A DNA stretch of 64,000 bases from NCBI RefSeq assembly GCF_005771535.1, contig NZ_VANU01000003.1:1-64000 (forward strand). Direction: 5' to 3'. This DNA comes from Arcobacter arenosus. Lineage in GTDB: Bacteria > Campylobacterota > Campylobacteria > Campylobacterales > Arcobacteraceae. Of the stretch, positions 29,543-31,660 are shown piece by piece. The position numbers and the translations under genes are program-made. How positions within the stretch are numbered: position 1 is the stretch's first letter; the number at the start of each line of letters is the position of its first letter. The notes beneath the pieces are model-generated. The model saw only the letters and a list, made by a program, of their open reading frames with translations, had not been told where the DNA came from and ran no database searches.

Positions 29543-31660
29543 TTAAGTTTTGGTCTTAACTGTAATTTTTTTAATATGAAACAATTCTTTTGTTGTATTT
29601 AATTGACTAGAATTTAGTATATCATTTAACTGTAATTCTTTTTGAGAAGCAGTTGGATTAGCTGTTTTTTGCATATCTGCAACACAACCTGAACCAATCT
29701 CTATATCTTCAATCATTGAGCCTGAATCATTATTTGTTTCTTCCAAAGTATCAGGCTTTTCATTACTTTGGAAGTTATCCTTTTTTGCAACAGTTTCCGG
29801 TTTTGATTCTTCTTTTATAAATTCGATTTCAATATTTTCACCAAAAATATCATATATAAAAAGTTTTAATATCCCATAATGTTTTAATAAAAACTTTCTT
29901 TCATCACCTTGCGCATAAGAACTGATTTCAAGTTTATTATCTGAAAAGTTTTTATAAACAAAGTTCTTTTCAAATGCTTCACCTAACTCATCGTCCCTTT
30001 CATAAACCTTAGCAATTAGTTGTTTATATGCCTTTGTATTTTCATCAATTATTTCAGGAACACTTTGTGGTATTGGTTCATAAACTGGTTCTTCTACAAT
30101 TGGCTCTTGGACAATCTCTTGAACTGTTTCATTAGGTATTTCATCTATTGTTTCAGAACTTATTTCTACTTGTTCTTCTTGTTTTTCCTCTACTGCAGAA
30201 GCCATATTTGAAACAGGCTCTTCAATCATCTGATTATGTTCTTTTTCTAAAGGTGCATTAAACTCTTCATCAAAAGGGTTTGGAAAAGGGTTGGTGTTTT
30301 GTTCAACAACTTCAATAGGTTCAACGGTAGGTATTGCATTTATACTATCTGTTGAAATAGTTGTCTCAGTTTCAATCTCTATTAGTTCTTCAATTTCATC
30401 AATTTCATCAACTACTTCAATTTCATTTTTTTCAATTTCTATTGGTTTGCTTTCATTTAAGGCCTTTTTATTTTCCATAAAAGTTTCATCAACCTTCACC
30501 ACTACATCATCATAGGCATGGTTAATATCATTATGTGCATGTTCTACAACTTTTTGTGTTGAAATAACTTCTTTCATAATTGGCTTAACTTCAATCTCTT
30601 GAACTTGATTTATAATCTCATCAATAGTTTTTAAATTTGTTGCTTCAACCATTTTTGATAAGGTTAAAATTAATACAAATCCTCCATCAGAATTTATTGC
30701 CAACAAATGTTTTGCATCACTTAATATTCTAAAAAATCTATCAAATAAAAGAATATTAAATTTTGCATCTTTTTCAAGCATTTTTTGTTTTAAATAAATT
30801 GTCATTTCATCACAAACTTGTGATATCTCATAGTTTTCTAATTCTTGTACTAATTTTGTAAAATCTTGTTTTTTTAATATAGTATCAAAAAGTTCATCCA
30901 TTAATTTTGGTTCAATAAGTCCCAACATATCAACAACTGCTGTTGTAGTAATTTTTCCCTTTGAAAAGATAATTGCTTGGTCTAACAAAGTTAAAGTATC
31001 CCTTAAACTTCCTTGTCCAGTTCTTGTTAATATCTCTAAAGCATCAGTTTCAAAATCAATATTTTCTTCATTTAAAATATGTGATAAATGATGCATCACA
31101 TCAGAATTTGCAATTTTATTAAATCTAAAATGTTGAGTTCTACTTAAAATAGTTGCTGGTAGTTTAAGTGGATCTGTTGTTGCAAGTATAAACTTTACAA
31201 AACCTGGAGGTTCTTCTAGTGTTTTAAGTAAGGCATTAAATGCTTGAGTTGTAAGCATATGAACCTCATCGATTATAAACACTTTAAATCGGGCACTACT
31301 TGGTTTATATTTTGTGTGTTCAATTAAATCTTTAATATCATCAATACCTCTATTTGAAGCGGCATCCATCTCTATAATATCAAGATGTTTATTTGTGTTT
31401 GCACTTTGACAATTTTCACACACTTCACAAGGTCTTGAGGTAGGTCCATTTGAACATAAAAGTGCCTTTGCCATAATTCTAGCAGTTGAAGTTTTACCAC
31501 TTCCCCTTAATCCACTAAAAAGATATGCATGGGATAATCTACTTGAATCTAAAGCTAAAGATAAAGTTTGAGAAATTGTTGTTTGTCCAACTAAATCCTC
31601 AAATCTTTTTGGTCTATATTTTAATGCTAACACCCTATTCTCTACAATTTTTTCATCCAT
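29543..31660 (-). CDS. dnaX: DNA polymerase III subunits gamma and tau
   Basis: DnaX is the clamp-loader ATPase. The 705-residue protein has Walker A GLRGSGKTS (50-58), zinc ligands C69, C78, C81 and C84, Walker B/DEAH-like DEVHML, and the sensor/arginine-finger region SRTQHFRFNK. After ~365 comes a long acidic, Glu/Val/Pro-rich linker (about 370-560) and a C-terminal domain. A heptamer AAAAAAG with a downstream stem-loop at codons 625-640 suggests a -1 frameshift giving a 628-residue gamma-like form. The start overlaps the murI end by 8 bp. Confidence 0.96.
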   Translation of the reverse strand: MDEKIVENRVLALKYRPKRFEDLVGQTTISQTLSLALDSSRLSHAYLFSGLRGSGKTSTARIMAKALLCSNGPTSRPCEVCENCQSANTNKHLDIIEMDAASNRGIDDIKDLIEHTKYKPSSARFKVFIIDEVHMLTTQAFNALLKTLEEPPGFVKFILATTDPLKLPATILSRTQHFRFNKIANSDVMHHLSHILNEENIDFETDALEILTRTGQGSLRDTLTLLDQAIIFSKGKITTTAVVDMLGLIEPKLMDELFDTILKKQDFTKLVQELENYEISQVCDEMTIYLKQKMLEKDAKFNILLFDRFFRILSDAKHLLAINSDGGFVLILTLSKMVEATNLKTIDEIINQVQEIEVKPIMKEVISTQKVVEHAHNDINHAYDDVVVKVDETFMENKKALNESKPIEIEKNEIEVVDEIDEIEELIEIETETTISTDSINAIPTVEPIEVVEQNTNPFPNPFDEEFNAPLEKEHNQMIEEPVSNMASAVEEKQEEQVEISSETIDEIPNETVQEIVQEPIVEEPVYEPIPQSVPEIIDENTKAYKQLIAKVYERDDELGEAFEKNFVYKNFSDNKLEISSYAQGDERKFLLKHYGILKLFIYDIFGENIEIEFIKEESKPETVAKKDNFQSNEKPDTLEETNNDSGSMIEDIEIGSGCVADMQKTANPTASQKELQLNDILNSSQLNTTKELFHIKKITVKTKT
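29740..29786 (-). promoter_or_regulatory. Programmed -1 ribosomal frameshift cassette in dnaX
   Basis: On the coding strand codons 625-627 read GCA AAA AAG, giving the slippery heptamer A AAA AAG (29780-29786). After a 5-nt spacer an 11-bp perfect stem follows: CTTCCAAAGTA (29764-29774) with TACTTTGGAAG (29740-29750), 13-nt loop. A -1 slip reads GGA then TAA, so the product ends one residue later. This copies the E. coli dnaX design (same heptamer and phase, near stop, stem-loop). A weak SD-like GGA lies about 10 nt upstream. Confidence 0.75.

Follow-up and report, generated by a model that had tools for sequence, protein, structure and literature searches.

The dnaX gene of Arcobacter arenosus very probably has two protein products: a −1 slip is predicted at a site near its 3' end, and in related species other signals at the same place would lead to the same outcome. 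We further consider it likely that three interchangeable mechanisms (−1 and +1 ribosomal frameshifting and transcriptional slippage) serve the dnaX genes of the family Arcobacteraceae at this one fixed place, and that the predominant mechanism represents a new class of cellular +1 frameshift, composed of a Shine-Dalgarno sequence and NCC_N without a stop codon in the A site, which would exploit rare codons that have no tRNA with G34. The phase of this +1 element would have flipped at least three times, so that depending on the species the shift would make either tau or gamma.

The window, i.e., the whole stretch of 64,000 nucleotides analyzed here, includes dnaX on its minus strand (Table 1). 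The N-terminal part of the gene product matches TIGR02397 at 401.6 bits (cut-off, 250), and no other match in the genome exceeds this cut-off. An initial annotation, made from the sequence alone, had described a slippery heptamer, a 5-nt spacer, an 11-bp stem, and a 13-nt loop in this gene, and its coordinates for these elements proved exact to the base. The phase of the heptamer was likewise confirmed on the minus strand, where the −1 frame reads GGA (29780-29778) and then TAA (29777-29775). The predicted slip product has 627 + 1 = 628 residues and ends in VAKKG, which is 78 residues fewer than in the 705-residue product of frame 0. In the mechanism that we propose for the window, most ribosomes would read on in frame 0 and produce the tau-like protein of 705 residues, while a fraction would slip back by one base at A_AAA_AAG, aided by the stem 5 nt downstream, add one glycine, and stop, yielding a gamma-like protein of 628 residues without the C-terminal helices that putatively hold the polymerase.

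Table 1. Features of the dnaX gene and its putative −1 frameshift cassette in the window
Feature	Position	Strand	Basis or remark
dnaX coding sequence, clamp-loader subunit gamma/tau, 705 aa in frame 0	29543..31660	−	TIGR02397, Pfam DNA_pol3_delta2 and DNAX_ATPase_lid
Slippery heptamer A_AAA_AAG, phase GCA AAA AAG	29780..29786	−	Present in 7 of the 16 species of the genus
Spacer GATAA, 5 nt; the −1 frame, from the final G of the heptamer on, is GGA TAA	29775..29779	−	
Stem, 5' arm, CTTCCAAAGTA, 11 bp	29764..29774	−	Folding and covariation
Loop, 13 nt	29751..29763	−	Relatives differ in loop length and sequence
Stem, 3' arm, TACTTTGGAAG	29740..29750	−	Folding and covariation
Weak Shine-Dalgarno-like element, GGAA, ahead of the heptamer	29795..29798	−	Putative function
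Folded C-terminal domain, residues about 536-618, helix-helix-strand-strand-helix-helix-strand, in both forms	29807..30055	−	Structure model
Tail, residues 628-705, long form only, ending GSGCVADM...ILNSxxLNxxKELFxxKKITVKTKT	29546..29779	−	Conserved across Campylobacterales
Two predicted tail helices, residues 671-694, presumed to bind polymerase by analogy with E. coli tau	29579..29650	−	Structure model

The −1 cassette of the window is above chance level. Its perfect stem is the predicted minimum-energy structure (−12.2 kcal/mol; z = −2.9), and 2 of 200 shuffled sequences fold equally well. As a background, we used 117,907 codons from seven genomes of the family, comprising the window and twenty 20-kb stretches of the six other genomes. 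The heptamer and a nearby −1 stop are by themselves not rare, since this background holds 60 in-frame A_AAA_AAG heptamers, of which 18 are followed by a −1 stop no more than 2 codons away. These counts favor the view that heptamer and stem are adventitious in an AT-rich gene, that they have no function, and that only full-length DnaX matters. However, the dnaX site is the only one among the 60 heptamers that combines a −1 stop within 2 codons with a perfect downstream stem of at least 8 bp. The stem also covaries across seven aligned species, and both partners have changed in 3 of the 11 pairs; 92% of the aligned stem cells are paired, compared with 39 to 57% when the 3' partner is slid by 1 to 3 columns. 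As one of three recoding elements further lies at this same place in 89 of 95 family members, we regard an adventitious origin as very unlikely.

The initial annotation had named conservation among relatives as one check of the signal, and six of the 15 other species of the genus (G001, G003, G006, G011, G014, and G015) indeed keep all four elements, namely, the heptamer, its spacing to the stem (5 to 6 nt), the stem with compensatory changes, and the −1 stop. Across the family, nine sites are of the −1 type, seven in the genus of the window (g1) plus those of G050 and G084, and the −1 stop is located exactly one codon past the slip in all nine. The downstream stem is strong at the G084 site and weaker at that of G050. 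It is this comparative evidence that argues for the dnaX of the window as a two-product gene.

A short form could also arise in the window by transcriptional slippage on the six A residues of the site, which would give mixed mRNAs. The gamma protein of Thermus is made by slippage (PMC5009743), and runs of A10 to A12, with both other frames closed, occupy the same place in 21 relatives. However, the run in the window has only six A residues, whereas proposed slip sites usually have 8 or more (PMC3711429). In addition, a downstream stem and a stop specific to the −1 frame are what a ribosomal −1 shift needs, and a covarying stem would be left unselected by slippage. We therefore give slippage at this site very little credence and favor a ribosomal −1 shift.

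The cassette, presented in the initial annotation as a signal in a Campylobacterota dnaX, is kept in the six congeners noted above; the nine other species of the same genus lack it and apparently have a +1 site, their tail continuing in the +1 frame. The −1 cassette is therefore better seen as one of several interchangeable solutions than as a conserved trait of Campylobacterota, and we accordingly took the analysis of dnaX to the whole family. We searched 104 Arcobacteraceae genomes, found dnaX in 98, and could classify 95. A recoding element occurs at the same place, directly behind the folded domain ending in ...IEF or ...LDF, in 89 of the 95 classified genes, and six genomes show none. By type, the genes comprise 9 with a −1 site, 21 with an A10 to A12 run, 47 with a +1 element and a long frame 0, and 12 with an inverted +1 arrangement. 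The A10 to A12 runs, which would act by transcriptional slippage, are spread over 8 genera, and both other frames stop within 0 to 5 codons of them. On the dnaX tree (a one-gene tree), the five states need 13 changes, compared with a mean of 43.7 when shuffled. Taken together, the explanation that we favor, in which selection acts on the place and the outcome and not on the signal, appears very likely to be correct.

Some relatives bear on how the types may have replaced one another. Within g1, species with a −1 site and species with an inverted +1 element intermingle on the tree of the dnaX 5' part, with AU p values for a single origin of 0.08 for the −1 type and 0.14 for the inverted type, so that monophyly of either is neither established nor rejected. 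The domain alleles in the 3' part of dnaX in this genus (loci L001 and L014-L028) look mosaic, and, together with the interleaved types, they may reflect recombination of the recoding region within g1. Two sister species outside g1 carry GAA AAA AAA AAG GAT GAA, with an A10 run (G085, L104), versus GAA AAA AAG GAT GAA with a strong stem (G084, L077); these are possibly a slippage site of the poly-A kind and a −1 site, one codon apart. A10 runs were also observed in dnaX genes outside Arcobacteraceae, in families f5 (L159, L163, and L164), f4 (L146), and f7 (L197), about 140 to 210 nt ahead of the stop and with both other frames closing within 0 to 6 codons. Slippage-type dnaX may thus be older than Arcobacteraceae.

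The most frequent type in the family is defined by AAAGGA-N4-NCC, found in the phase AAG GAN NNN NCC at the homologous place in 59 genomes and not once in that phase in the 117,907 background codons. Because this motif was first spotted by eye and then searched for, its fixed letters are not independent evidence; the distances to stop codons and the inverted genes are. In all 47 genes whose frame 0 is long, a +1 stop follows after no more than 6 codons (median, 2; mean, 2.1). At random upstream places in the same 47 genes, the mean distance to a +1 stop is 9.6 codons, and none of 20,000 draws was as low. The −1 frame shows no comparable closure at these elements (mean, 6.2), and the +1 stops vary by genus (TAG or TAA) and lie in unrelated sequence. 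The slip codon encodes proline in 30 cases, alanine in 27, and serine in 2 (CCC, GCC, and TCC, respectively), with 7 changes on the tree, and its third base is C in 59 of 59, although only 1 to 11% of the codons used in the NCN boxes for Pro, Ala, and Ser end in C. The following codon is rare in 53 of the 59 and is CAA or CAG in the remaining six. No conserved structure was supported downstream of the +1 element (mean z, −0.7).

In the 12 inverted genes, the relation of the frames is reversed: frame 0 ends 1 to 5 codons past the slip codon, and in the +1 frame 74 to 108 codons remain open and lead through the conserved tail motif. In nine species of g1, for example, frame 0 ends at the site (e.g., ...IKEDPSTRGA stop) and the tail is found in the +1 frame. 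The inverted genes fall into three separate parts of the tree (g1; G091 of g19; and G058 and G062 of g8), always with the same NCC. Several of the surveyed genomes are drafts, but an assembly error is not the cause of the inversion, since G002 and G091 are single-contig genomes. Because the +1 site would work at either phase, frame 0 can encode the long form, as in 47 genomes, or the short form, as in 12, and in the inverted species the long form would require the +1 shift. The inverted +1 type was also observed outside Arcobacteraceae, at L201 in G142 of the Campylobacterales family f2, with the element AAGGACTTACCCC; frame 0 of this dnaX closes 5 codons past the slip codon, and its +1 frame, 143 open codons long, ends in a tail resembling the tails found in relatives of G142.

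The same genes could be read without any recoding, with NCC as part of an ordinary protein motif in the acidic linker (...KEE-P/A-S/T) and the inverted genes as truncations whose tail is decaying or is a separate protein. Frame 0 of the inverted species does, by itself, encode a complete protein of ATPase plus folded domain, as this reading would have it. Yet the amino acid at the slip codon varies (P, A, or S) and the fourfold-degenerate third position is fixed as C throughout. The tails of the inverted species also keep the family motif, and their differences fall mainly at third positions of the +1 frame (47, versus 18 and 12 at the other two positions, in the only two pairs compared). Further, the near +1 stops in all 47 other genes would be left unexplained. 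We consider this reading improbable, and AAAGGA-N4-NCC is best read as a prfB-like +1 frameshift element.

In the mechanism envisaged for these relatives, AAAGGA would pair as a Shine-Dalgarno sequence placed 4 nt ahead of NCC_N, and the peptidyl-tRNA on the rare NCC codon would release and move one base forward. Alternatively, the next tRNA may read the overlapping CCN codon directly, with no tRNA slip. The anti-Shine-Dalgarno end of the 16S rRNA is canonical. In prfB, pairing beside the P-site codon puts the mRNA under tension, which helps the peptidyl-tRNA to slip (PMC8710568), and tRNA-Pro(UGG) shifts +1 at CCC-N (PMC4519876). An Rfam tRNA search of the window genome (G000) and of G017 (loci L236-L284) recovered a single Pro tRNA, with UGG, and UGC as the only Ala anticodon; the Ser tRNAs carry UGA and GCU, and those for Thr include GGU. 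In neither genome did the search recover a G34 tRNA for the NCC codons of Pro, Ala, or Ser, and, lacking such a partner, CCC, GCC, and TCC must be read by U34. ACC, whose amino acid, Thr, has the GGU tRNA, is never the slip codon among the 59 elements. At GCC and TCC, re-pairing in the +1 frame is imperfect. An enlarged anticodon loop in tRNA-Pro was considered as a cause of the +1 shift and was rejected, as the loop has 7 nt. We infer the occurrence of the shifts, their efficiency, and the P-site slip model from the sequences.

The position of the site determines what the two forms would share. The initial annotation placed it near the C terminus, with the acidic linker retained in the short form; this is borne out, and the short form further keeps a folded domain and loses only the tail. 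In a structure model of the C-terminal 191 residues, this domain occupies model residues 26 to 102 at a pLDDT of about 96; the slip falls at model residue 113 and is followed by a disordered stretch and then by two helices at 157 to 180. A fold search with the domain returned a DnaA-domain-I/KH-like arrangement (best match, 4tps; Z = 8.8), and E. coli tau appeared as a weak Foldseek match (5fkv_E, rank 20). By position, the domain is likely the counterpart or homologue of domain V of tau. Comparing the C-terminal sequence with proteins of solved structure gave no match. In E. coli tau, the last ~26 residues form the polymerase-binding end (PMC11470591 and PMC4703070), and removal of the last 25 abolishes polymerase binding and leaves a protein that is gamma-like in binding (PMC11470591). 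The tail in the window closes with a helical motif comparable to that end. An hhalign comparison of the tail with E. coli tau found the right register but was not significant, and for this reason we only infer, by analogy, that the short form loses polymerase binding.

A short form could in principle be made by proteolysis, as in Caulobacter, where gamma is a proteolytic cleavage product of tau (PMC5009743), the nucleotide elements then being relics. Covarying stems, stops specific to one phase, and the open frames of the inverted genes are, however, not expected of relics, which makes this origin extremely unlikely, and recoding of the mRNA or of its translation is the reading that we retain.

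The E. coli dnaX cassette includes a Shine-Dalgarno stimulator about 10 nt upstream. The initial annotation had found the window cassette to agree with that of E. coli, and this stands for the gene, the heptamer and its phase, the spacing of 5 to 6 nt, the stem, and the placement of the −1 stop one codon past the slip, as well as for the predicted short form without the polymerase-binding end. The upstream element is weak or absent in the window, where only CCGGAA and no AGGAG-type Shine-Dalgarno sequence was found ahead of the heptamer; three congeners (G001, G014, and G015) have CAGGAG there. The agreement does not extend to the Rfam model of the E. coli-type element, RF00382, which gave no match to the window site at E values up to 10, although it finds the E. 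coli element at 96.8 bits; an Rfam search of the site returned chance matches only. The sites also differ in position: the slip in the window would occur at codon 627 of 705, after the folded domain, and would cost only the 78-residue tail, whereas the E. coli site is at about codon 430 of 643. Because of this different place in the protein and the lack of a match to RF00382, the resemblance to E. coli lies in the mechanism and is probably convergent. A plasmid search for the window region gave no match.

Other known systems resemble one or another of the types in the family. The 21 Arcobacteraceae genes with a poly-A run are like Thermus thermophilus dnaX in having A10 to A12, the other frames stopped, and a long frame 0, but they differ in the position of the run, and slippage is only predicted in Arcobacteraceae; the window itself is not of the Thermus type, as its run is only A6 and the type calls for 9 or more A residues. 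The two-ORF dnaX of Chlorobi and others (17 genes) needs recoding for tau, through a −1 shift at poly-A (PMC3711429). The 12 inverted genes likewise require recoding for tau but would obtain it through a +1 shift at a Shine-Dalgarno sequence plus NCC. The +1 element resembles prfB in its internal Shine-Dalgarno sequence, a short distance ahead of the slip codon, and in the predicted direction of shift; unlike prfB, it has NCC in place of CUU, a mostly rare sense codon in place of UGA in the A site, and AAAGGA at 4 nt, and it serves a different gene and purpose. The A-site codon after NCC is a sense codon, and the prfB-type combination of CUU_U and in-frame UGA is absent. In Listeria phage PSA, cps shifts +1 at CCC_UCC (PMC5009743), the same slip motif with a rare CCC in a low-GC bacterium, but there in a phage structural gene; the Arcobacteraceae element differs in having a Shine-Dalgarno sequence. 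Pseudoknot stimulators have been reported for bacterial +1 cases (PMC5009743). In the five genomes tested (G000, G002, G017, G059, and G094; loci L285-L289), prfB is one uninterrupted frame, and the dnaX of this group would thus carry a +1 device that its prfB lacks.

The RF2 (prfB) +1 frameshift is common in bacteria, and dnaX is the textbook example of a cellular gene subject to recoding, in which the importance of gamma has long been debated. The −1, slippage, and inverted −1/poly-A types of dnaX are already known; what appears to be new here is the +1 type and the swapping of modes, for which we found no report. Among open-licence papers, specifically, we found none describing +1 recoding of dnaX, dnaX recoding in Campylobacterota, or all three dnaX recoding modes replacing one another within one family. 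If true, the +1 element would join prfB as a second +1 frameshift that is widespread on bacterial chromosomes. It would be simpler to dissect than prfB, because no release factor competes, and the inverted species make the +1 shift directly testable, because full-length and presumably essential tau would exist only with the shift. Gene annotation is affected as well, since in 12 species a DnaX translated solely from frame 0 lacks the tail. As the signal appears to have been replaced repeatedly while its position and outcome stayed constant, these genes offer strong evidence that both forms of DnaX are under selection in Arcobacteraceae.
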